A stretch of 49,153 nt of DNA from Triparma columacea (lineage: Eukaryota; Sar; Bolidophyceae; Parmales; Triparmaceae). Location of the stretch: positions 5,417 to 54,569 of the forward strand of contig BRYA01000079.1 of the NCBI GenBank assembly GCA_030267965.1. The letters are read 5' to 3'. Below are positions 140 through 15,239 of the stretch, piece by piece. How positions within the stretch are numbered: the first letter of the stretch is position 1; each line of letters starts with the position of its first letter. The notes under the pieces are model-generated. The model worked only from the letters and a program-made list of their open reading frames with translations. It was not told where the DNA came from and did not search any database. The translations under genes and the position numbers were made by a program.

Positions 140-1480
140 CTGTTCCATAGTATCGCATACCTCCTCTTCCCCCCCTTCAATTTTCCCCCCCAACGCAATA
201 TCGTGTAGTCTTTCAATAAGTTTCCCCTCCCCCTCCCCTTTCTCTACATCCCTTTTAACGAACCCGAATTCCCACCCTTCCTTAACCTCCACACTATCCC
301 CTTCACTAGGTCCTCCTACAACAACCCCTCCCCTCACCCCCCCTTCATTCCCTTCCCCCCCACCTCTACCATCCTTCCCCTTCCCAACCTTAACTTCTCT
401 ACTCTCCCCCCCATCATTAGTATAACATTTCCCCACAACCTCCACCCCCCCAACCCCGTCTTTAGGTTTCCATTTCCCCGGTAGTTCCTTCTCCTCCATT
501 CTCCTAACCAGCCAGCAAATGGCGTCTACAATGTTAGCGTTGCACCGAGCCGCAATCGAGGCCTGTTCAAGGGTGAATCCTCCCGTGTTCGGGTCCCTTA
601 AGTACTCGATAATGCTCCCCTTTCCCGAGTTGTCATTGAGGTTTCCGGCGTGCGCGTTTAAACCACCCTTGAGTCCCACGACCTTTTCGACAGCCGCCCT
701 AACCTTTCCCGACATGGATACGCCGTACGGTTTGTTAGCCGCCTTCCTGTTCTCCCTCTTCTGCATAGTCTCCTTCCTCAGTTTCCCAGCCGTCTCGTTG
801 TGCTTGTTCTCCTCGTCCTTACTAGCGAACCTGTTCTGCATAACCAGTCTTGTCGGCGGTTTTCCCATGCTCACACCCGAATTACCTCCCCCTTCGCCCG
901 CACCTGCGGACCCAGCCTTACCCCTCCTACCTTGTGTCTTGTCATCCCTTGTTCCCCCGCCTTGCATGACCCTCCACTGAGTTTTGTAGGGCTCAGGTAA
1001 GTAAAGGTCGAGTCCCTTCTTCCCTTCGAGTTGGTTGAGTGCAACCAGACATACCTCCTCCTTCCCCACGTCCTCGCTCCTAGCGTCAGTGCCGCTAACG
1101 AAGCAAAGGTCCTTGGCGGGGTTCTTTGTGTCAGGGAGGATCACACGGAACCTGAACTTTCCCGAGTCACCCAAGTTCTTGAATTTTGGGGGCCTCCTTT
1201 TACCCTTCTTGCACCATTCAGACATTAGCATCGACGGTACCTTCTGTCCTTCCTTAACCTCGACCCCCCCCCTATTAACAGCCTCCTTCTTCCCAACGAC
1301 TGCCCCAGCTATCGTCGCACCTTTCTGCTTGTGTCCCTTACCTCCCCAACTCTGGGTTAAGGGGTCCCATTTATGACCCCTGCTTGGACGGGGGGGACGG
1401 TTACCGCAATCGCAGTTGTAGGGGTGATCGCAGGCACATTTTGGGGGTTCGGAGGACTTCTTTGACTTTGATTTACCCAT
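140..1480 (-). CDS. Putative DHX29/DHX57-like DExH RNA helicase, N-terminal exon (3' end beyond window)
   Basis: The reading frame starts at ATG 1480 and runs for 447 codons to a good donor (GTGAGC, first base at 139); codons after it give low-complexity Gly/Arg and a stop at 65, so I treat them as intron. The rest of the gene would lie left of the window. Residues 1-30 are basic with a Cys-rich stretch (CACDHPYNCDC). Residues about 100-170 resemble the dsRBD-like segment of DHX29/DHX57 family helicases, ending in ALNQL...LYLPEPYKTQW. Residues about 290-340 resemble the family's UBA-like segment, ending CWLVRRMEEKELPGKWKP, close to the 'WL ... HLPEDELP' pattern known there. The family unwinds structured mRNA and DHX29 acts on 40S scanning complexes. 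No helicase motifs lie inside the window, so the family assignment is an inference from these two segments; an unrelated RNA-binding protein is possible. Confidence 0.5.
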
Positions 1481-1920
1481 TTTTTGAGGAGGGGTATCCG
1501 AGGGAGGTGGAATTATTCGCCTATTTGTACCTAATTTCGTTTGTTTTATTAGTTTTAGGGATATATAGTATAGTAAATGGGTTGCGAGGGATATATATGA
1601 AGATGTAGTTATTAAATGGGAGAAAATGTGAGAAAATGAAAATGGAGAAAGGAGGGGCAGAAAAGAAAGGGAAAGTCTCTCATTTTAGGTCCATTTTCTC
1701 TCTCATTTTAAACGTATATTCGAATATTATCCAATAACGTAATTTTTACACCCAGATTAGTCACACACACACATTTAGTATTGAAATATACACCTTAAAG
1801 CTCCAAATAATAGCACATCCAATTATCCCTTGCTTCATCACTGTGCATACACTGTGCTACATACACAGACGCACATACACACACACACAAATACATACAC
1901 ATACGTACACATACGTACAT
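1481..1920. promoter_or_regulatory. Divergent intergenic region between the helicase-like gene and the next plus-strand gene
   Basis: This AT-richer spacer separates two divergent start codons (1480 minus, 1921 plus) and must hold both promoters and 5' UTRs. It includes a palindrome-like pair of ATTTTCTC/TCTCATTTT tracts near 1620-1710. A CA-rich microsatellite (1860-1920: repeated acacac, then acatacgtac units) lies directly before the plus-strand start. I see no clear TATA box at a convincing distance. Confidence 0.4.
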
Positions 1921-2856
1921 ATGGCACAATCTAACGCAGATAAGCCAACAGATCACATAATTTACTCCTCATTAACCTCACTGGCCCCTACAAACTCCCA
2001 CACAAATTCCTCTACAACTCTTTCAAACGCAAACACCGACAATGTTGATAATAATACACTGAATGATACAGTAAAAAGAAAGAAAAGAAAAGAAAAGTCA
2101 TCAAATCAATCATCCAAATCCTCATCATCCAAATCCTACCACTCCACAATCACCAGCTCAAACACAACGTCCTCAAACAAAGATGTCTACGATTACCTAT
2201 CTGACATATTAATACCCCCCAACAACCACCCCTCCCCCACCTCCACCTCTTCCTCCTTCCCACCAAAACCAACCCCCCCAACACAATACAACATAAAATC
2301 AAGGTCAAAGTTAAGCTCAAACATGCGTGATCGCGTCGGTTACCGCACCGTCCGTTTAGAGATATTAAAGTCTTCCCCTTCCCCCCCTACCATCTCACAG
2401 GGGGTAAATAAAAGAAAGTCTGAGAGAGGGGGAGGGGGAAATAATATGGAGAGGGTTTGGGTTGGAGGTAGAGCAACCAAGAGGTTAAAACGACTTTACG
2501 ATAACTACCAAATAGACATGAAGGAACTCGGGGTGTTTGATAGTACACCATCCTCAAGCTTCTGTCAAGATTCTATCGGAGGGGGAGTAAAAGATAAAGG
2601 GGATTACGTAATCGCACCTGGCTGTCAACTTGAAGTCGTACCTGTTAACGCTGGTGAAATAATGGGGATCAGAGAACGGTCAGGGGGGGTAGGTAAACCC
2701 ACAAAACCCGGAACGTACGTTGTTACAAGCCTTTCGGAAAGTAAAGGAGGGGAAAGAATAGTTAGAGGATGCAAGAGCGGGGGAGGGTGGGTTAAGATAT
2801 TTAAAGGGGAGGTATGGGTTAACGTTAAGGGAAGGAGGAGGATGTACGTGCTCTGA
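1921..2856 (+). CDS. Hypothetical basic, Ser/Thr/Pro-rich protein (311 aa)
   Basis: I do not recognise this gene. The frame is open from an ATG at 1843, but the first 26 codons are a translated CA microsatellite (His/Thr/Tyr repeats), so I prefer the ATG at 1921 (MAQSNADKPT). The N-terminal 130 residues are Ser/Thr/Asn-rich low complexity with a strong nuclear-localisation-like cluster (VKRKKRKEK, about residues 46-54). The C-terminal half is more ordered. It includes MRDRVGYRTVRLEIL at about residue 135 and a terminal segment rich in Gly, Val and basic residues (KIFKGEVWVNVKGRRRMYVL). This looks like a nuclear protein with a small beta-rich C-terminal domain, which is an inference only. It converges on the minus-strand gene ending at 2972, leaving 115 bp between stops. 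Confidence 0.5.
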   Translation: MAQSNADKPTDHIIYSSLTSLAPTNSHTNSSTTLSNANTDNVDNNTLNDTVKRKKRKEKSSNQSSKSSSSKSYHSTITSSNTTSSNKDVYDYLSDILIPPNNHPSPTSTSSSFPPKPTPPTQYNIKSRSKLSSNMRDRVGYRTVRLEILKSSPSPPTISQGVNKRKSERGGGGNNMERVWVGGRATKRLKRLYDNYQIDMKELGVFDSTPSSSFCQDSIGGGVKDKGDYVIAPGCQLEVVPVNAGEIMGIRERSGGVGKPTKPGTYVVTSLSESKGGERIVRGCKSGGGWVKIFKGEVWVNVKGRRRMYVL

Positions 2857-2971
2857 AAAGGGGGTTTGGAACGGTTCGTGGAGGAGGATCGTTACAGGAA
2901 TTGAATTATTTATAAGTCTGAATGTAAATATAGAACAAATCCATTTGATCAAGACCTTGTACATAACACAG

Positions 2972-4685: not shown

Positions 4686-5525
4686 ATGTCCGCTTTCGCT
4701 GCAGGAGCACCCCCAGATCCTGGAGGAGGAGGAGGAGGGAGGAACAAGTTCACAAGCAACGACCAGCTGAAGAAGGCAGCGAAGGAGTGGGTGCAGGATA
4801 AGAACAAGGCAAAGGAGAAGTACGGCAAGATTGAAGACTGGGACGTGTCGGAGGTTACGAGTTTTCATGAGCTCTTTAAGGGAGCGAAGGAATTCAATGA
4901 GGACCTCAGTCGATGGGACGTTTCGAATGTCACCAGTATGTACTGCGTGTTTCGTTTGTGCTCAGCTTTCAACTCTGACATCTCTTTGTGGAACACATCG
5001 AACTGCACGGATATGTACTGCATGTTTAATTGCTGCTCGGCTTTCAACTCAGACATCTCTAAGTGGAACACATCGAACTGCACGAATATGCATTGCATGT
5101 TTATTGGCTGCTCGGCTTTCAACTGTGACCTCTCCGAGTGGAACACATCGAACTGCACGGATATGAGAAGCATGTTTGGTGGTTGCTCGGCTTTCAACTG
5201 TGACCTCTCTGAGTGGAAAACATTGAACTGCACGGATATGAGAAGCATGTTTCAATTGTGCCGGACTTTCAACTGTGACCTCTCTAAGTGGAACACATCG
5301 AACTGCACGGATATGTTCAACATGTTTAATGATTGCTCGGCTTTCAACTCTGATCTCTCTACGTGGAACACATCGAACTGCACAGATATGAGGAGCATGT
5401 TCAAAAATGCGACCTCTTTCGACAGTGATTTGTCTCAGTGGAACATGTCAAAGGTCAAAAAGAAAACCGACATGTTCAACAACGCTACTGCTATGAAAGC
5501 ATCCCACAAGCCCAAAGGTGTATGA
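4686..5525 (+). CDS. BspA-like / DUF285 (PF03382-type) 25-residue repeat protein
   Basis: Single-exon protein of 279 residues. Residues 1-20 are Gly/Pro-rich, 20-51 charged and helical, and from residue 52 there are eight full 25-residue units plus a degenerate ninth. The consensus is W-(N/D)-(T/V)-S-N-(C/V)-T-(D/S)-M-xx-M-F-xx-C-S-A-F-N-x-D-(I/L)-S. This is the BspA/DUF285 leucine-rich-repeat-related family, known from bacterial surface proteins and mycoplasma lipoproteins and expanded in some protists. The repeats predict a solenoid. The middle units carry two aligned Cys (NC-T and C-SAF), which would form Cys ladders on the solenoid; this is my inference. There is no signal peptide, so a cytoplasmic location is likelier than a surface one. 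No intron is needed. The function is unknown. Confidence 0.85.
   Translation: MSAFAAGAPPDPGGGGGGRNKFTSNDQLKKAAKEWVQDKNKAKEKYGKIEDWDVSEVTSFHELFKGAKEFNEDLSRWDVSNVTSMYCVFRLCSAFNSDISLWNTSNCTDMYCMFNCCSAFNSDISKWNTSNCTNMHCMFIGCSAFNCDLSEWNTSNCTDMRSMFGGCSAFNCDLSEWKTLNCTDMRSMFQLCRTFNCDLSKWNTSNCTDMFNMFNDCSAFNSDLSTWNTSNCTDMRSMFKNATSFDSDLSQWNMSKVKKKTDMFNNATAMKASHKPKGV
4839..5510 (+). repeat. 75-bp coding tandem repeats
   Basis: Eight 75-bp units plus a partial ninth underlie the BspA-like solenoid. Neighbouring units share long identical stretches (for example tggaacacatcgaactgcac recurs in five units), indicating recent expansion or homogenisation. Outer units are more diverged than inner ones. Confidence 0.9.
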
Positions 5526-5788: not shown

Positions 5789-7384
5789 TCAACTCTTCTT
5801 CTTTTGTTCCTCACTCTGCAAGCCCGGGACCTCCCCTCCCTTCTTCTCCTTCGCCCTCTCCCTTTCCGCCTTGACCACTAGTTCGTTGTCGTCCTCCTCG
5901 TCCTCCTTCCTCCTCCCCTTGTCAACCTTGAGCGCACTCCTCCCGTAAATTTTCTCGAAAACGTGGTCCCTTGCCCCCCCCTCCGCGTTCCAGTCGCTGT
6001 TGAGCAAGGCAAAGGAGAAACTGTTCCTGCTGACAACCGTGTCTTCGTCAACCTCAATCAGGACGTCCTTCATCTTCTCCCCCTCGACGGTGAACCCTAG
6101 CCTACCGGCCAACCTCCTGCCCTCAGAGTCATCGATGTCACAATCATACTGGACCCTCCTGTACCCCATTCCGAAGAGTTTCCCCAGCACGAGGTACCCC
6201 GCCTCGACCTCTTGCACCTTCCCCTGATAGGTCGGCGTCCAGATCCCGCACTCCATCTTCACGGAGAGGTTGGAGGGGTCGTCTTCGGTGAGCTTAATGG
6301 CGCCGACGCACTTGCGTGTGACAATGTCGAGACAGAGTATGACGCACGAGTCCTTCCCGACGCCAAAGAGGGGGGACGAGTGCACGTCGTTTAAGTTGGA
6401 GAAAGGACCGCCTGTGGAGGGGAGGAAACCCCAAACTGTGGAGGGGTCGAAGGATGGGTGACCCTCGAAGGGCACGCCGGAGGTGTTGAGGGCGAAGTCT
6501 GAAGCGAGGGCGAGAGACTGCGGGTCGCTGGGGAGGTAGGGGTTGAGGATGACGGAGGACCCGAAGGTCCCTGTGGGGTACGTCTTGTAGATTTCATCCA
6601 TCGTATCAAACTCTTTCACGCCCTTGGTGGCCAGCGTTGTAAAGACCCTGGCGTAGCTGCGTGAGTAGTTCTTCAGGGTCTCTGGAATGTTCACCTCGAA
6701 GATTTTCGGGATCTGGGAGCAGGCGGACTTGGTGAAGGACTCGGCACCTGCGTTGGGTCGACCCGGGACGTTGACCGAGTACGTGACGTGGTAGGCCTGG
6801 AAGCGGAGGTAGTTTGCCTTGAAGAGGGATGGAGAGGGGGGGTTGGAGGACATTTTGATTGTGAGGGTTATGGACTTGGCCTGGCCCTCCATCATGACCC
6901 TCCTCGCCATGACCAGGTCTTCGTAGAGTGAAGGTCTCCCATTCATAATGACCTTAGCATTCGTAGCCACGATCTCCTCGCCGCGCGACGCGGCGGCGTC
7001 CTGCTCAGCAATGCGGTCAAAGGAGCCGCCGGCAATGAGGAGGTAGATGACGGTGGCTATTGTGACGACAAAAACAGTAGAACCAAGGCCTGCATGGGGA
7101 ATGGGATGGAGGGTGGTGGTTGGGTTGGAAGGGTGTCGTACATATATCTCTGCAATGCACGTCGTATATCATAGAAACGAATGTGTTCTGGGATATCTCT
7201 TCATCAGAGCAACAACACAACCACCACCACCACCACTCCCCTCGTCATTGCTCCCACCACCATCCCCCCTTTTCATCTTACCTATGCCAATCAATTGAGC
7301 CCTTGGCAACTCTCTCACTCCATCCAAAAGAAGTTGGACGTTAGGACCTAGCACATTTTGCACAGCATTGACAATGTCATCCAT
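5789..7384 (-). CDS. Membrane-anchored GNAT-family acetyltransferase (467 aa)
   Basis: Two exons: 7384-7282 and 7089-5789, with an intron (7281-7090) bounded by GTAAGA and CATGCAG; the join is in phase 1. The start is ATG 7384 (MDDIVNAVQNVLGP). Splicing reveals a transmembrane segment at about residues 36-57 (STVFVVTIATVIYLLIAG) that is lost if only the long exon is read. Residues about 280-400 carry the GNAT acetyl-CoA fold signature of RimJ/RimL-like enzymes: CGIWTPTYQG, EAGYLVLGKLF, GYRRVQYDCD, then the RLAGRLGF-TVEG motif and a C-terminal SFALLNSDW. The family transfers acetyl from acetyl-CoA to amino groups; the substrate is unknown. The last 60 residues are highly charged. A single N-terminal anchor with a cytosolic or lumenal enzyme domain is inferred. 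Its intron holds a copy of the dispersed intronic repeat. Confidence 0.8.
7137..7222 (-). repeat. Dispersed intronic repeat, copy D (diverged or truncated)
   Basis: Inside the intron of the minus-strand GNAT gene. On the minus strand it reads ctgatgaagagata, then tatgatatacgacgtgcat, then agagata, after which similarity to the other copies fades. It is in the sense orientation of the host transcript. Confidence 0.65.
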
Positions 7385-7675
7385 TATATCCAAGAAAATT
7401 TTGGTCGACGTGATGGGGGTCTGGAAAATAAGAGTGTTAGGGATGTTTAGTGGTGTTTTGGTCACTTTTTTGTGGTCCTTAAGATGCACAACCCTCTCTG
7501 AATAACAAAGACCTCGTCAAAAATCCTTTAAACTCACCTTTTTCTTTTGCCTAAATTCGCTATTTCTATTTTCCCCTATTTTCTCCTCCATTCGATTATC
7601 TCTCGCCTTCTTTAAATTGCGTAAGCCGTTCGCCTTACTACAAAAACCAACGAAGTCTCAACATAAATCTTCAAC
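7385..7675. promoter_or_regulatory. Divergent promoter region, GNAT / ferroportin
   Basis: The 291 bp between ATG 7384 (minus) and ATG 7676 (plus) must contain both promoters. The frame upstream of the GNAT ATG stays open for 35 codons, but the methionine at 7384 best fits the protein start. No canonical TATA or Inr motif is convincing. Confidence 0.35.
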
Positions 7676-9975
7676 ATGGGTAATACGCCTTTTGGTCGAC
7701 GCACCGACGATCTCCAGACTCGATCTGACCAGGATTTGCGCAGCAATGACCCTAATACCCTCACTCCCGATGAGTCCGGGGGTCTGACTGAATTAGACGC
7801 TCTTCTCTCTCCTTCTTCCCGTTCTCGTCTCCCGTCCTTGTCCTTCTACAACACCACCCCCTCCCCCTCTCTGCAAACAGCTCCCAAGACCTTCCCCGAC
7901 TCGGCCCCTCCCGCCTTCGGCAAAAGGGGAGACTCGCGTCTCCCGGACGCCCCCCCCCCCTCCATCCGCAACCTCCTCTACACAGGTCATTTCACGTCCC
8001 AGTGGGCGGAGAGGACCTGGGAGTTCACCATCATCCTCCTACTCACCGCTATTGGACCCTCAGACATGGCCCTCCTGCTGCCCTCGACGTTCGGGCTGTT
8101 CTGCTGTCTCAGTTCACTACTCAGCCTCGGTGCAGTAGGCGCATACATCGACAGAAGTTCAAGGTGAGGCCGGGGATGGGGATATTTAATTGTATGGAAA
8201 AAATGTATAATTTATGTTGCTTTCAATATTGTCGTCGCTGTGCTCCTCAGCTTGTGTCTTCCACAAATCTAACTCATTCTCGCACCCTTCGCAGAATCTC
8301 TGCCTTTCGGGCCATCCTAATTTGGCAGAACTTCTCCGTAGTATCCTGCACAGCTGCCTGCTACACCCTCCTTGTCTTGCGCGAGTCCGCTGGTGGAAAG
8401 GTCCTGACGCTGGACTCTGAGTTCTTCCAGGACCCTTTTACTACCTACTTGTTGATCTTTATCCACGTCATGGGGGCGAGCAGCCAGATTGCGAGCAAGG
8501 GGAGCAGCGTGAGCATCGAGAAGGACTGGGTCCCAGAGATATCAAAGGTGAGTCGTCCCCTCTTCGTCCCCCCTTCCTCCCGGTGCCAGAAGGGGTTCTA
8601 ACCGCGCGCTCCCCTCCCCTGCAGGAATACGATGACCACGGTTGGCTGACGCAGACGAACGTGCAAATGAGACAGATCGACTTGGGCTGCAAGGTTGTGG
8701 CGCCGGTATTCGCGGGATTCGTCGTGGCGTGGGGAGGGGAGGACTTAAAGGTGAGTTATGGGGGGGGGAGGGAGGGGGGGGGGGGGGGTTGATGGCAATG
8801 ACGAAGAAACATGAATCTCATTATCTGAACAAAGTTTGTGAAGATTACACATAAATCCAAAATTTCCGAGCCCTGGACAATTTCCTGAATATCCTCCGAC
8901 CGTCAACGCTCTTCAGTCTTAGCCCTAACACACCACACCACCCCCAACCCACCGCAGCCAGCATGCGTTGCTATGGGGGCCTTCAATTTCCTCACCATTC
9001 TTGTGGAGTGGTGGAGCAGCAAGAAGGTCTACTCCATGGTGCCGAAGCTTGCCAGTAAGGCCGAACACAAGGAAGACGGTGACGACGACCGGATGGACGA
9101 GAAGAGCGGGGGGGGTTGCATCTCAGATAACGTAGCGTCACTACAAACGTACTGCCACTACACTGTCGGGCTAGGTGAGGACGGGAGAGGGGGGGGGGGA
9201 TAGGGGGATAAGGGGGGGATATATATTGTCTTGTGCGCAGCTTGCTTCGAGGAACGAAGGGTTTCCTTCTGTTGGTGTGCAAGAAGTCGCTGCGCTCCTC
9301 CTGACCCCACAATCTAACTCCTCCTGCCCACCTCATTGCAGCCGGACTCGCGCTTGCGGCGCTTTACGTGAACGTTCTCAGCTACGGCAGCATCATGCTC
9401 GCGTACGTAACTTGGAGAGGGATGAGCCCCCCCACCATCGGTCTAACCAGGGGTATCTCGGCCACTATTGGTCTCCTCGGCACAATTGCGTACAAGTACT
9501 CCTCGAGCAAGATGAACCTGGAGAATACGGGGCTCTGGAGTATCATGATGCAGGCAGCGTTCCTAGGGATCAGCTACTCCAGCCAGTTTGTAGACGACGA
9601 CAACACGAGCCTGGCGATGCTTGTGGCCGGGGTCTGCGGGAGCAGGGTGGGACTTTGGAGGTGAGAATGGATCAGGCAGGAAGAGTACAACATTTCTTAT
9701 TGCCAACTGTTGCTGACTACTCTTACTAACTACTGCCAACTCATTGCAGCTTCGACCTCGCTGTCAGCCAGATGATGCAAGAGAGGATCCCAGAGGAGGA
9801 CAGGGGGGCGGTAGGTGGGATCCAGACGGCACTGTGCAGCGCATTCGAAATGCTCTCCTACGTTATGGGTATAGTGTGGGCCAAACCGGAAGAATTCAGG
9901 TTCCTGATTGACTTCAGTTATGCAGGGATGCTAGGGGCAGCGGCTTTGTATGGGGTATTCTGGGGGAGGAGCTAA
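7676..9975 (+). CDS. Ferroportin-like iron exporter (SLC40 family), six exons
   Basis: Exons 7676-8163, 8295-8547, 8625-8750, 8958-9174, 9342-9660 and 9750-9975 join in frame to 542 residues; every intron is GT-AG (131, 77, 207, 167 and 89 bp). The C-terminal part matches SLC40 ferroportins closely: RVGLWSFDLAVSQMMQ across the last splice site, then ERIPEEDRGAVGGIQ, corresponding to the family's WSFDL...QE...ERG...GVQ segment. The first membrane segments follow a disordered 100-residue N-terminus (LYTGHFTSQWAERTWEF, TAIGPSDMALLLPSTFGL). The family exports Fe2+ from the cytosol; in plants and algae it also loads vacuoles or plastids. The N-terminal region has no clear signal sequence, so plasma or vacuolar membrane is likely. 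Total length fits the family (about 500-580). Confidence 0.95.
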
Positions 9976-10644
9976 CGGATAAGATAGAGGGAACATATAG
10001 TGGTGGTGTACACGTAATAGAGAAAGTCGGAAGGGTTTGACGAAATGAACGCAAGTGAAACAATCCGGATAAAAGCTGAAACATTTCATTTTGAAGGTGA
10101 TGACAATATTATATTTATTTAATAGGTAAAATTATGAGAACATCAATCAAATCTAAAACCATTCATAATCGCTTGGATTATTAAAAAAAGTTTTCAAAGG
10201 CATCAAAATATTATTTCTTCAAAAACATATTTGTTGTTTACTGGCTATACATTAAATATGTAATTGTACATTCTTATATTGCAAGATATTTGAATTGATA
10301 AAAAACAAATCACATATAAAATAATTTCATAATTACCCATTTTGGAATTTATAATATATGAAATCATTAAATATACATATTAGATCATATATAAAACAAC
10401 TTGATATTTTATTGACAGATTTGAAGCCCTTTAGAATGTTCCAAAAAATCTCGAACACTCGAAATCTGGATGACGGAAACGAGTCATGAGATTTGTGATG
10501 ATAGACAACCAAAACAAAAGGTGTATCGTGCTGTTATGATATTGACAGATCTGCCATCGTTCTGGTCTTTTTTCATCTTTTTTCATGGTGATTAGCTATC
10601 ACCCAAATACTACAAAAGTTCGAAAATACATTCATGAAACATTT
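9976..10644. other. Gene-free, strongly AT-rich intergenic segment
   Basis: Tail-to-tail spacer of 669 bp. Bases 10081-10440 are about 21 per cent GC by my count, against well over 50 per cent in neighbouring exons. It contains no long ORF and no obvious tandem repeat, only A/T homopolymer runs. See the corresponding finding. Confidence 0.7.
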
Positions 10645-11255
10645 TTACCCCATGATTCCTCCAATCCCTTCGTTCACCCCTCGCACGAGTTTGAAGTGCG
10701 TCTCCACAAGCTTATCCGTTCTCTCTTCCACCCTCTCTTTCCTTTCAACCAGCTTGACGACCTCATCCTGGAGGTTCCGTAAGCGAGAGATTTGAGAGGA
10801 GGAGAGAGAGAAGCGCTGCTCATCGTTGAGTGTTTTACCGGAGGAGTAGGAGCTTTTTAGGGAAGATAAATCCGAGAGGAGAGCAGAGTAATCCTCTTCG
10901 CAGCTAATCGTTAAAGGTTGAGGTGGTGGTTAGTCGGTGTTTTAACAAGTACCCCCCCCACCCCCCTCGCCCCCCCCACCAACTTCTCTCACCTAACGAC
11001 GACCTCCATCATATCCTCGACCCCCTCCTCCCCCCTCCCCTCCAAACCCTCCATGTCCTTCAAGTGTTGGTTGACGTCCTGCCAACCTTTCCTGATTTCC
11101 TTACCCTCGCATTTTAGGACGCCCTCTGAGTTCTCCAAGGTTTTCAACCTGTTGTCTATGCTGGAGTCGCTGGTGGTAGAACGGTTGAGGCCGAGGTTTT
11201 CCTCTAGGGTTTGGATTCTGTGGAGAAGCCTGTTCAATCTTGTCTCTCGAGACAT
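10645..11255 (-). CDS. Small coiled-coil protein, possibly dynactin p24 (DCTN3)-like (173 aa)
   Basis: Two exons, 11255-10993 and 10903-10645, joined in phase 2 across an intron with donor GTGAGA and acceptor GATTAG. The product is almost entirely helical with heptads: ETRLNRLLHRIQTLEENLGL at residues 4-23, IDNRLKTLENSEGVLK, EEDYSALLSDLSSLK, then SQISRLRNLQDEVVKLVERK and a final FKLVRGVNEGIGGIMG. Length, an N-terminal heptad with a following glycine-containing break, and a C-terminal long helix resemble dynactin subunit 3 (p24), a shoulder component of the dynein activator. The similarity is architectural and weak, and other small coiled-coil proteins fit too. A dynein cofactor would be consistent with a flagellate cell carrying SAS-6. 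Confidence 0.55.
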
Positions 11256-11561
11256 TGTTGGGGGGGATTAAACGTCGATAAGGATAGAGGGGGAGTAGGT
11301 TTGAATCGATTGAACGAGAGAGGCGAAGTACAAGTGAGGTTCAGGGAAGGTGGAGGGCTTTAAAGGTGATTTGTTGGGGACGGTTTTGGGAGGGATGTGT
11401 TTTATAATCTACCTTGTGTGTGATGTTCTAAAACAAGCGGTGATGTGTGTTTTGAAGGTGTATAAATGTGTTACGGTGGCAATTGAATGTGTAGTAAAGG
11501 TAGTTTAGTGAGGGTTGAGTTTTGAGGGAGAAATTTGCTTGATATTTTGTTGTATTTTGAT
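11256..11561. promoter_or_regulatory. Divergent promoter region, coiled-coil gene / acyl-ACP synthetase
   Basis: The 306 bp between ATG 11255 (minus) and ATG 11562 (plus). The right half is AT-rich (a TTTTGTTGTATTTTGATATGA-like context precedes the plus start). I see no specific motif. Confidence 0.35.
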
Positions 11562-14500
11562 ATGAGATTTTCATCCTCATTACGCATTTTATGTGCAATA
11601 ATTGTACTTCAGAACATAACATCATTTCATAATGTTGTAACAGTAGGCTCAACCTCCAGATCAATCGTATCTGGAGGCATCAAAAAGAATGGCGAGATCG
11701 CTCCCATTGCGTCTTCAATATTCTCATCAAATTCAAACAAAGCACGCAAATTATATAGTTTAACACAGAAAGGTAAGTTAATGAGACAAGTTGTGCAAAG
11801 TCTGGCTCATAATTAAGACGAATCAATGAAAGAAAGGGCAAATAAAGAGGAAAACAATTCTCGAAAGACCACACGCCTCTTATTGCCCTCCACAAATATA
11901 TGTGTTGTATGTTCCGATGAAGAGATAAACCACAAGGTTGAGCATCTTTATGATATGCGACGTGCATTTCGGAGACATGCGCAATGATTAAACGCCAGCA
12001 AACGGGAAATGGCTGCCAAACGACCATACTGAGGAACAAACACATGACAACAACAAGCTGCAGTATGTTCACACTGTACCTTTCTGTCTGAGAGTGACCT
12101 AACACCAAACTTCGATCGTACTCGATATCCGCCTCCCCCTCCCCCCCCCTCTCTCCCCCCCTCACACACACATTTGACGATGCAGGTAAGGGAGGAAGGA
12201 AAGAAGGAGAGTTATTGCAAAGTCGTTTGAGATGATGAATGTTGTTTGTTCCAAGGATGTAAATATACCACAATATATTCAACATATGATATGCGACGTG
12301 CATTCCGGAGACACGCGCAATGATATAACGCCAGCAATTGTCAAATGGCTGCCAAACGACCATACTGAGGAACAAAACAGCATAACCACACACCGAATCA
12401 CCACCAAGGCCCATTCCTACCCTCGCCTCACCCCCCCCCCTCGCCGGCCCTTCCCCCCAGAGTCCGCAACGTTGGGTATGAATTCCTCTTCTCCTTCCCC
12501 ATTTTCCTCTCCCTCCTCCCCTCTCTCCTTCCTCCCTCCCAACCCCCTAGACGTTGCCGAGGACCCTTTGACGAACGAACTTAGGGTCATGAGGGAGGGG
12601 CTAGAGAGCACGTGCGAGATATGGGAGAAAATGTCAGGTGAGGCCATCCCCCTCCCCTTTTTTATTGAAGAGATAGATGGTGATTGTTCGATCCGATGAA
12701 GAGATAACCCACAAACTGACATAATGTATGATATGCGACGTGCACTTCGGAGACACGCGCAATGATTTAACGCCAGCAAGCCCAAAATGGCTGCCAAAAA
12801 ACTATCCTGAGGAACAAGACAAGCACCTTCACCATATCCTCCTCCCCTCAACCCCTCCGAACCCAAACCTCAAACGCTCATCGCTTCGCTCTTCGCTCGC
12901 TTCGCTTCGCTCTTCGCTCGCTTCGCTCTTCGCTCGCTTCGCTCCTCGCTCGCTTAACTCCTCGCTCGCTTAACTCCTCCTCGCAGCACTTTGCCCCACC
13001 CTCACGGCTGTGACTGACGACTATCACTGCGACGTCCCCGTTTCCTACACCTTCTCCGAAGTCCGCGACCTCGTCTCCGGCCTCTCCCTCCACCTCCACT
13101 CCATGGGCCTAACCCCCGGCTCCAAGGCCTCCCTCTTCGCTGAGAACTCCGCCCACTGGCTGATCTCAGACCACGCCGTCCAGTCCCTCTCAGCTTCCAC
13201 AGCCGTCAGGGGGGCAGACGCCCCCCCAGAAGAGCTGAGGTACATCTACGAACACTCGGACTCGGGCCTGGCCATCCTGCAGGGACCCAAGCTCCTGGAG
13301 AAGCTGGTGAAGGACGCGGAGGAGAAGGGCCTCCCAGGACCAGCAGGCCTAGTCTCTAAGGACGGGAAAGCTTGCGGCAACATCATCTTGATTAAGAGGG
13401 ACAAGTACACCGACCAAGACCTCGAATCCTTAATCTCCTCCCACCCCTCCCTGTCCTCCGTCTCCATAACTTTCCTTTCGACCCTCCTTACAACCCCCCC
13501 CCCACATCCTTCTATTCCTGTAACCCCCCCTAATCTCTCCACCCTCTCCACTATCGTCTACACCTCCGGGACAACCGGTAGCCCCAAGGGCGTCATGCTC
13601 GCTCACTCCAACCTCCTCCACCAGCTCTCCCACCGTCTCTCCCCCACCTCCCCCTACTCCTCTACGGAGCCCAACCCAGGGGAGACCATGCTATCTCTCC
13701 TCCCGGTCTGGCACATAACGGAGAGGACGTTCGAGCTGTGGCAGTTCACCCGAGGCTGCAAGGTGGTGTACTCTAGCATAAGGACTTTCAAGGGTGACCT
13801 GGCTAAGCACAAGCCCGAGTGGATGGTTCTGGTGCCGAGGGTACTGGAGAAGGTCGCGCTAGGCGTGCAGGCGAAGTTCGCAGCGGGATCCAAGGCCCAG
13901 AAGGCAATCGTTTCCCTCGCCGTTAAGTCCGCGAGCCGAAGGAACTCGCTGAAGGCCATAGCGGAGGGCCTAGTAGACGGGACCGAGAAACCATCGAGGG
14001 TGGTTAGGGCATCGGCTAGGATCAGGGCAGCGGCGTGGAAGCCGCTGGCGGGGCTCACTGACAAGCTCGTCTGGAGCAAGGTCAGGATGGGTTTCGGGGG
14101 GAACCAGAAGGTAATAATATCCGGAGGCTCAGCGCTGAGCTCGTCCCTCGAGGAGTTCTACGCGAACGCCGGGATACCCATCGTCGTAGGGTACGGCCTC
14201 ACGGAGACCTCGCCCCTAGTTTCCTTCCGGCAGATGGACAGGAACCTCAAAGTCGGGGGTTGCGTTGGCTTCCCCTGCAAGGACACAGAGGTCAAGGTCG
14301 TGGACGAGGCTAGTAGGGAACCCGTGCCTAGGGGATCCCCCGGAATCGTGCTCGCCAGGGGACCCCAGGTTATGCGGGGCTACTACAAGAACGAGGAGGC
14401 GACGAGGAAGGCGATCGACGGGGACGGATTCTTTGACACAGGGGACCTCGGGAGGATCTGCGAGGCCACGGGGGACCTCATACTAACGGGACGCGCGAAG

Positions 14501-15050
14501 GACACGATTGTGCTGTCGAATGGGGAGAACATAGAACCTCAGCCGCTCGAAGATAGCATCCTCAAGTCAGGTGAGAAGGTTTTTTTCCGGATGGCGCCAA
14601 AGCCTTGAGCTCTAACACAACCTCGCCCTCGTCGCAGATCTGATCGACCAAATCGTGCTAAGCGGAGACGACGGTCGCAGGCTAGTCGCCATCTGCGTGT
14701 TGAGCATCCCCGGGCTTGTCGCTCGAGGTTTCATGACTCAGGAGCAGGAGAAGTTGTACTCTCCACTAGTTGACAAGCTCAACGACCCTCAGTACGACCC
14801 CGAAGCCTGCGCTGATGCCGCCAGGGAGCTCAGGGCGCTCACAGATGTCCTCAGATCTGACAGCGTGTTAACGGCGGCCGTGCAGGACGACCTCAGAAGC
14901 GGGACGGGGGTCAAGGGGGGATTTAGGGCCTGGGAGAGCGTGTCGGAGGCCATCCTCTTGACGGAACCCTTCGCCATGAGTAACGGGCTGCTCACGCAAA
15001 GCTTTAAGGTGAAGAGACAGCCCGTCGTTGACCGGTGGGGTAATCCCTAG
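11562..15050 (+). CDS. Plastid-type long-chain acyl-ACP/acyl-CoA synthetase (AAE15/AAE16-like), four exons
   Basis: Exons 11562-11772, 12461-12637, 12987-14570 and 14638-15050 join in phase to 794 residues. The N-terminus (MRFSSSLRILCAIIVLQNITSFHN) looks like a signal peptide followed by Ser/Asn/Lys-rich sequence, with Phe at the likely cleavage point (ITS-F), as in stramenopile bipartite plastid presequences. The enzyme is a complete ANL ligase: P-loop VYTSGTTGSPKG at about 320-331, YGLTETSP at about 532, TGDLGRI at about 614, and a C-terminal hinge with RAKDTIVLSNGENIEP. Best recalled match is Arabidopsis AAE15/16 and cyanobacterial acyl-ACP synthetase, which activate free fatty acids with ATP for re-entry into plastid lipid synthesis. 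Introns 1 and 2 carry dispersed repeat copies. The stop is TAG at 15048. Confidence 0.9.
11910..12048 (+). repeat. Dispersed intronic repeat, copy A
   Basis: About 139 bp in the first half of intron 1 of the acyl-ACP synthetase. It has the shared core gatgaagagata, atgatatgcgacgtgcat, cggagaca, gcgcaatgat, acgccagca, aaatggctgccaaacgacc and tactgaggaacaa. Confidence 0.85.
12246..12395 (+). repeat. Dispersed intronic repeat, copy B
   Basis: Second half of the same intron, same orientation. The core from atgatatgcgacgtgcat to tactgaggaacaa is nearly identical to copy A; the 5' part (ttgttccaaggatgtaaata) has diverged from the gatgaagagata consensus. Confidence 0.85.
12685..12825 (+). repeat. 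Dispersed intronic repeat, copy C
   Basis: Inside intron 2 (12638-12986) of the acyl-ACP synthetase, sense orientation, with full 5' gatgaagagata block and full 3' ctgaggaacaa block. Flanks differ from copies A and B. Confidence 0.85.
12880..12975 (+). repeat. Pyrimidine-rich microsatellite in intron 2
   Basis: A tandem array of tcgctcttcgctcgct-like units, about 16-21 bp each, ends right before the acceptor (tcctcctcgcag) and serves as its polypyrimidine tract. Confidence 0.8.
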
Positions 15051-15239
15051 TCTTGCGTGTGTCAACAATGATAAATCACATTCCTTTAGCCATCCATTAT
15101 TACAACCCTTACAATCACTTTTTCAAGTCCACGACCATGGGGTAAACAATAGTCTTGCGTGTGTCAACAATGATAAATCACATTCCTTTAGCCATCCATT
15201 ATTACAACCCTTACAATCACTTTTTCAAGTCCACGACCA
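15036..15239. repeat. 102-bp tandem duplication across two convergent gene ends
   Basis: Two units, 15036-15137 and 15138-15239, differ at only three positions. The unit contains the last codons and stop of the acyl-ACP synthetase and, on the other strand, the last codons and stop of the PP2C gene. Confidence 0.95.

Follow-up and report, generated by a model that had tools for sequence, protein, structure and literature searches.

A stretch of 49,153 nucleotides (nt) from the alga Triparma columacea (Bolidophyceae; GenBank assembly GCA_030267965.1, contig BRYA01000079.1, positions 5,417 to 54,569 of the forward strand; hereafter the window) carries four copies of a repeat that recurs elsewhere in the genome as a whole intron. 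Introners are intron-making elements. We consider it probable that the repeats are introners, that is, mobile spliceosomal introns, with a box C/D-like RNA as cargo and with it a diversified family of guides. To judge from sequence, hundreds of self-similar intron copies appear to be spread through the genes of this alga. An earlier note on the window had proposed an introner-like element, and this reading is well supported: whole introns bounded by splice sites recur across genes, and most of the units extracted fall into four families.

The genome (37.9 Mb in 789 contigs) was searched with a 15-base core of the repeat, allowing up to two mismatches. This search gave 406 matches, 230 on the plus strand and 176 on the minus strand, compared with 11 for the reversed pattern, in agreement with the dispersed family that the note had described. 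The copies examined further numbered 165, on 33 contigs, and were picked partly by best match and partly by contig order, always through similarity to the core. Ten of these contigs held a single copy and 23 held several. In 21 of the latter, all copies were on one strand. The two mixed contigs were that of the window, where one copy (D) lies in another gene, and C404, in which copies at 2748-2877 (plus) and 1064-1637 (minus) of locus L030 are on opposite strands, separated by about 1.2 kb. The largest array, on contig C66, contains 42 copies spaced 283-351 bases apart. It reaches the contig end (near base 82,400 of 82,585), so that the true array is probably longer and the true copy number higher.

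Spacers between neighbouring copies less than 420 bases apart within one locus were examined (n = 118). An AG/GTAAG juncture was present in all 118, with a branch-site-like motif 5' of the juncture in 113. These junctures and motifs indicate that one repeat unit corresponds to an entire intron of the form GTAAG ... CTAAC branch site ... YAG. Whole-intron units were then extracted (n = 126); four families accounted for 121 of them, and 5 were unassigned. The three large families comprise 51 units on 15 contigs, 41 units on 7 and 26 units on 9, and begin with GTAAGGAAGG, GTAAGATGTAAAG and GTAAGATGAGA, respectively; the small family has 3 units on 3 contigs. Lone full-length family introns bounded by splice sites were found on contigs C13 (M48 peptidase), C45 (aldo/keto reductase) and C209, and in hosts other than those on C13 and C45 the introns that hold the element have different flanks. 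Because the AG/GT junctures leave exons of zero length, the arrays look recursively spliced, with one element per intron and one unit removed at a time. In one family, an 18-nt micro-exon would be possible as an alternative to the zero-length exon.

Furthermore, we searched for Pfam domains around the element at nine contigs with one or two copies (C8, C13, C22, C23, C31, C42, C45, C52, and C62), using same-strand coding stretches only. A domain lay downstream on the element's strand (E <= 0.001) in eight of the nine loci; the match on C8 (21.4 bits) was slightly under the Pfam cut-off, and on C42 no Pfam match was obtained in same-strand coding stretches. In two of the nine loci, the element splits a fold. 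On C22, a short-chain dehydrogenase (SDR) gene, KR lies upstream of the element (21.5 bits, just below the Pfam cut-off of 22.6) and adh_short downstream, and on C52 a PCRF domain is found on both sides. The array on C87 is followed by an OsmC/DAO coding stretch on the same strand. Genes with the element in their introns encode M48 peptidase, SDR, SMC hinge, PALP, aldo/keto reductase (AKR), PCRF/RF-1, epimerase, AMP-binding, and OsmC domains. These results are consistent with the sense orientation claimed in the note, with the strand of the domain matching that of the element in eight of nine loci at which same-strand stretches alone were tested.

The predicted structured RNA in the introns

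The most conserved part of the repeat is a predicted structured RNA inside the intron, common to introns that otherwise differ in sequence. The note had recognized a well-conserved core with differing flanks; its picture of the repeat was incomplete in that the tandem arrays, the box C/D-like anatomy, and two hypervariable segments had gone unseen. The predicted cargo is an RNA element of ~127 nt with a terminal stem, a C-box-like motif, and a D box, like a box C/D small nucleolar RNA (snoRNA). It combines a terminal stem (GTTCC/GGAAC) with a 7-mer resembling a C box, which keeps a fixed register, a hairpin region of 26 bases, the C'-like motif ATGAT(T/A), a second stem (CAGC/GCTG), and the D box CTGA.

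Aligned over 33 copies from 33 contigs, the element shows 62 invariant columns and a further 31 that are at least 90% conserved (93 in total). Conservation was also counted in a set of 162 copies, which had been premerged at identity over 105 bases, dropping one member of a recent C66 pair, and in which 160 copies had a readable v2 (the second hypervariable segment, below). The D box CTGA was kept in 157 of the 162, and CTGAGGAAC was found within one change in 159 and exactly in 148, with 3 copies lacking a match at this tolerance of one change. Four of the five pairs of the terminal stem were kept in 153-155 of 155 copies, and the fifth, as anchored by the script, in 124 of 155. The distance from the D box to the CTAAC branch site had medians of 65, 69, and 70 nt in the large families (n = 48, 40, and 26) and 74 nt in the small one (n = 3). 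Since the three large families do not cluster by flank sequence, this similar spacing points to function rather than to shared descent of the flanks. Taken as a whole, the anatomy suggests that the element RNA is likely a box C/D-like RNA.

Two hypervariable segments and their possible targets

Two short segments interrupt the conserved scaffold. In the first (v1), the twelve positions before TATGATATG carry 0.01-0.25 bits (160 copies), compared with 1.7-1.9 bits just 3' of them; its length is mostly 12 nt, with some copies off by at least one base. The second (v2) comprises the five loop positions of the CAGC/GCTG stem and is near 0 bits, like v1. In 158 units, 156 distinct v1 were found, and v1 and v2 together were shared exactly by two pairs only, an adjacent pair on C66 and a pair on C87. 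In a set of 136 copies with the usual v2 length and TAT after v1, the closest v1 pairs, apart from the v1 shared on C87, differed at no fewer than 3 of 12 positions. Among the pairs of units with flank identity above 90% (n = 269), the mode of the v1 distance was 9 of 12. In the pair closest by flanks (98.9% identical, not counting 12 gap columns), v1 is different at 9 of 12 positions, v2 at 4 of 5, and the ~50-base core between them at 1 base. Point mutation at the flank rate would not suffice for nine changes in v1 at this flank identity.

In box C/D RNAs, a guide sits directly upstream of the D' motif. The position of v1, directly 5' of a D'-like motif, argues for reading it as a guide. From the features above we infer splicing, processing, protein partners, guiding, mobility, and the mode of v1 and v2 change, as follows. 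Each unit would be a complete intron that multiplies in tandem and also sits singly in different genes. The arrays, joined by zero-length AG/GT exons, could be removed unit by unit by the spliceosome. After splicing and debranching, the RNA would be trimmed to the terminal stem and the C/D k-turn, as for intronic snoRNAs. v1, just 5' of the D'-like motif, would be presented as an antisense guide, and v2 in a hairpin loop. The scaffold and the introns would spread and homogenize, with the guide segments replaced or strongly diversified, giving hundreds of guides on one chassis.

The dinucleotide composition of v1 is low in TA and high in CA, a poor fit to both the coding and the non-coding part of the window. 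Position 5 of v1 favours A or T (122 of 158 units, compared with 78 and 91 of 158 at the neighbouring positions). Guides share 6-8-mers above letter-shuffle and first-order Markov nulls by about 2.7-3.5 standard deviations (sd), and consistent overlaps between guides showed no excess over a second-order null. One column pair stood out in the covariation of v1 with v2 (z about 5) and was rejected, as it is not complementary (55 paired compared with 51.7 expected). When v1 and v2 were slid along each other for complement and identity, just two offsets were slightly past an absolute z of 2, both for identity.

The element was also found in metagenome protein catalogues, where open reading frames (ORFs) run over it, 16 in one sense frame and 5 antisense; their presence indicates that the family lives in wild populations. 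Residues were compared for the 16 sense-frame ORFs. In nine of the metagenomic copies the full set of five v1 residues can be read; one of the nine agrees with a sampled copy and eight agree with none, misses that show little because the sample holds ~165 of ~400 copies. Two ORFs could be paired with genomic sites, with orthology judged from flanks alone. P0123 aligns with the last C87 unit at 86% identity over 150 residues, with equal v1 and v2 residues and differing flanks; in the unit before the last, v2 differs. P0129 aligns through unique flanks to a C404 copy and differs from it in v1 (1 of 5 residues shared) and v2. At these apparently orthologous sites, the two segments can be kept and can differ.

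These comparisons bear on a doubtful but serious possibility, namely that the guides are old and their targets fixed, with conversion and unequal crossing-over homogenizing introns and scaffold, selection removing overwritten guides, and the hypervariability being only apparent. Such a history is compatible with introners and competes only over the origin of the v1 and v2 differences. P0123, the one apparent orthologue that keeps its residues beside differing flanks, would fit it, as would the flank types that arrays share. Against it, conversion tracts would have to stop at the edges of the 12-nt and 5-nt segments yet homogenize the intervening ~50 nt, v1 and v2 are unrelated in the pair whose flanks are 98.9% identical, and P0129 differs in both segments.

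We next considered the targets. Random placement of 156 v1 on 5.4 kb of ribosomal RNA (rRNA) predicts about 18 exact overlaps of at least 8 bases, and 2 were seen, in a test that assumes random placement and exact pairing. With half of the v1 on rRNA, about 5 overlaps would be expected (P = 0.12). The deficit argues against rRNA for most guides, and under these assumptions the guides taken together probably have a target space larger than 10 kb. An ordinary family of rRNA-modification snoRNAs, multiplied in introns from one ancestral scaffold and with each copy guiding 2'-O-methylation of a different rRNA or small nuclear RNA site, is thus unlikely, with room left for up to about half of the guides on rRNA. 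Such a family would account for the box C/D-like anatomy and the intronic position, and Ostreococcus tauri has many intronic or clustered snoRNAs; the copy number here, however, exceeds the 131 snoRNAs reported for that alga (PMC7671301, available text).

As a tentative extension, the repeats may constitute a nuclear programmable guide-RNA system, in which mobile introns with a constant chassis each carry a unique pair of 12-nt and 5-nt segments, which would diversify much more quickly than the remainder of the element and be directed at mRNAs, mobile elements, or viruses, not at rRNA. A permissive two-part search of 181 kb, with 3 mismatches allowed and duplicated array sequence included, gave 990 matches, compared with 892-949 in three shuffles; the reverse complement of v2 lay upstream in 513, compared with 432-442. 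This small excess is not counted as evidence. Exact cores were absent from viral contigs (0 in two scans).

A parasitic repeat like a SINE or MITE, lacking RNA function and with v1 and v2 unconstrained and freely mutating, is quite improbable. The high copy number and the presence of decayed copies (window 7101-7212, and a few low-scoring model matches) would suit such a repeat. However, contigs whose flanks mostly differ share a strongly conserved scaffold, and strand and branch-site spacing look constrained. A covariance model of the element gave 164 matches in 35 loci, of which 157 exceeded 120 bits and 3 of the remaining 7 were cut by locus ends, though these loci had been chosen for good copies. 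Moreover, free mutation would not yield 9 of 12 changes in v1 beside a 1% change in the flanks. Hypervariable codons of a repeated peptide exon are barely credible: one sense frame is open in many copies (MICDVHFGDTRND..TPA..KWLPN), and metagenome catalogues contain ORFs of this kind, but the conserved core of many copies is interrupted by an in-frame stop (GAT TAA, GAT TAG), v2 measures 5 nt, and the element is intronic in the tested host genes.

Besides the differences at P0129 and in the unit before the last of C87, several observations weigh against introners with a guide-bearing cargo. Sampling by core similarity makes conservation and intactness partly a matter of ascertainment. No target-site duplication was evident by eye in the C13, C45, and C209 flanks, where the upstream flanks end in AG; target-site duplications or terminal inverted repeats were reported for 49 of 130 and 72 of 177 assessable introner families, so that they are not required (PMC9860276, main text). 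The C-box variants (AUGAAGA, CUGAUGU, AGGAUGU, and AUGAUGU) stand at one register after GTTCC+1 and are 1-2 bases off RUGAUGA. The k-turn positions G3, A4, and G6 of the C box stay in these variants. The stretch from the C box to v1 has a few subtypes (about 0.2-1.4 bits), and the C' and D' boxes are approximate (ATGATT or ATGATA after the hairpin, and TATGA after v1). In the 33 aligned copies, 0 stem pairs had changed on both sides, while 11 cells had a change on one side that kept the pair and 4 cells were broken; the stems are kept, yet the copies vary too little for a covariation test of them. Rfam, which lists families and not the class, gave 0 matches at the gathering score in the window and 17 loci. 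Targets in a guide's own locus did not stand out (mean ranks 0.467 and 0.496 compared with 0.5 expected, standard error 0.022, n = 165), and exact 12-mer matches of 150 v1 in 181 kb numbered 9, compared with 3.7 (sd 1.8) for shuffled and 4 for reversed sequences; they were scattered, and no targets are claimed.

Copies in the window

The window was searched by cmsearch with the covariance model, which was built on 33 copies from 33 contigs, copy C of the window among them. The model bore out the four copies described in the note: three on the plus strand at 144-147 bits (A, B, and C) and the decayed copy D on the minus strand were significant, and no other match was; a fifth fell below significance (14.9 bits, E 0.89). 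The coordinates are collected in Table 1.

Table 1. Element copies, their parts, and host-gene features in the window
Feature	Position	Strand	Basis
Copy A, box C/D-like RNA element, intron 1 of AMP-binding (ACS-like) gene	11909..12039	+	cmsearch 146.5 bits, E 3.9e-28
Copy A terminal stem, 5' half GTTCC	11911..11915	+	sequence; 4/5 stem pairs kept in 153-155/155 copies
Copy A C-box-like ATGAAGA, after stem 5' half	11917-11923	+	sequence
Copy A v1, hypervariable 12 nt, immediately 5' of D'-like TATGA	11937..11948	+	0.01-0.25 bits/position, 160 copies
Copy A v2, hypervariable 5 nt, loop of CAGC/GCTG stem	12002..12006	+	copy alignment
Copy A D box CTGA	12029-12032	+	sequence; CTGA kept in 157/162 copies
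Copy A terminal stem, 3' half GGAAC	12033-12037	+	sequence
AG/GTAAGG juncture (zero-length exon), copy A unit / copy B unit	12185..12186	+	sequence
Copy B, second unit of intron 1; v1 12273-12284, v2 12338-12342	12246..12375	+	cmsearch 144.5 bits
Copy C, intron 3 (present gene model); v1 12715-12726, v2 12780-12784	12688..12817	+	cmsearch 144.4 bits; copy is among the model's 33
Copy D, decayed, 3' half including D box lost; putative intron of minus-strand gene	7101..7212	-	cmsearch 34.5 bits, E 7.6e-5
Host-gene intron 1, two stacked units 11773-12185 and 12186-12460	11773..12460	+	reading frame joinable across
Host-gene exon 2, 15 nt	12461-12475	+	present gene model
Host-gene intron 3, contains copy C	12638..12986	+	reading frame joinable across

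The host of copies A to C is an AMP-binding enzyme (PF00501 in Pfam). Among the 120 best relatives listed for its protein, the closest named one is from Triparma verrucosa (61% identity), and several diatom proteins rank lower. The note's placement of copies A and B in intron 1 stands. Copy C, which it had put in intron 2, lies in intron 3 of the present gene model; the earlier placement would hold if the 15-nt exon 2 is wrong. The GNAT identity given to the host of copy D was not confirmed, as the minus-strand ORF at 5789-6970 beside this copy has no Pfam match.

Adjoining copy C inside intron 3, positions 12881-12982 hold a short tandem repeat of TTCGCTC type with a spacing of 16-21 bases. 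At relaxed thresholds, Rfam gave 24 matches of low score in 11700-13000; most were to low-complexity stretches between elements, and they were rejected. A 102-base tandem duplication, 97% identical, is present at 15036-15239, 3' of the AMP-binding gene and adjoining a PP2C phosphatase gene. Positions 4686-5525 encode a DUF285-repeat protein, with 75-base periodicity in the DNA repeats, and positions 9368-9664 are a ferroportin (FPN1) coding stretch; the model found no element copy in the latter gene.

Relation to known systems and significance

Ordinary snoRNAs have little in common beyond their boxes. By contrast, the element has 93 columns conserved in at least 90% of 33 copies and two short variable segments, and its segment before the D box, which usually is a guide in box C/D snoRNAs, is constant. 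The Class I RNAs of dictyostelid amoebae are lineage-specific, abundant non-coding RNAs with conserved ends and a variable middle, as here; to our knowledge, they are not intronic introners and have no box C/D anatomy. CRISPR arrays and bridge RNAs, which combine a constant chassis with unique short segments, are alike in concept. Unlike these, the element is nuclear and intronic, with segments of 12 and 5 nt.

As in the introners of Micromonas, Aureococcus, fungi, and Amoebophrya, whole introns that are nearly identical and have splice sites of their own occupy different genes, several families share one genome, and the host is an aquatic protist (PMC9860276 and PMC7789003, available text). 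Unlike in those, several intron families here have one internal structured RNA in common, and tandem arrays are formed via zero-length exons. The main text of PMC9860276 does not mention tandem, noncoding RNA, hypervariable, Triparma, Bolido, or stramenopile, and the available text of PMC7789003 does not mention snoRNA. With intronic box C/D snoRNAs the element shares C-box-like and D boxes, a terminal stem, a sense-intronic position, and a similar branch-site distance (PMC5033589 and PMC7671301, available text). The polycistronic snoRNA clusters of Candida and Debaryomyces have zero-length exons and recursive splicing, which can resolve such an exon arrangement into one RNA per intron (PMC5033589, available text). 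In the literature searched, we found no introner with an RNA cargo, no introner that carries a snoRNA, and no hypervariable snoRNA array.

The arrays of up to 42 units with zero-length exons would, if so spliced, be an extreme case for recursive splicing. Hypervariable segments in a conserved scaffold demand strong diversifying selection, segment exchange, or very selective homogenization. The introners of this alga seem to bear a family of functional RNAs, which would make intron gain and the expansion of guide RNAs one process, and an intron may be retained for the usefulness of its RNA. If the programmable guide reading is true, introners would have spread a repertoire of guides in a eukaryote.

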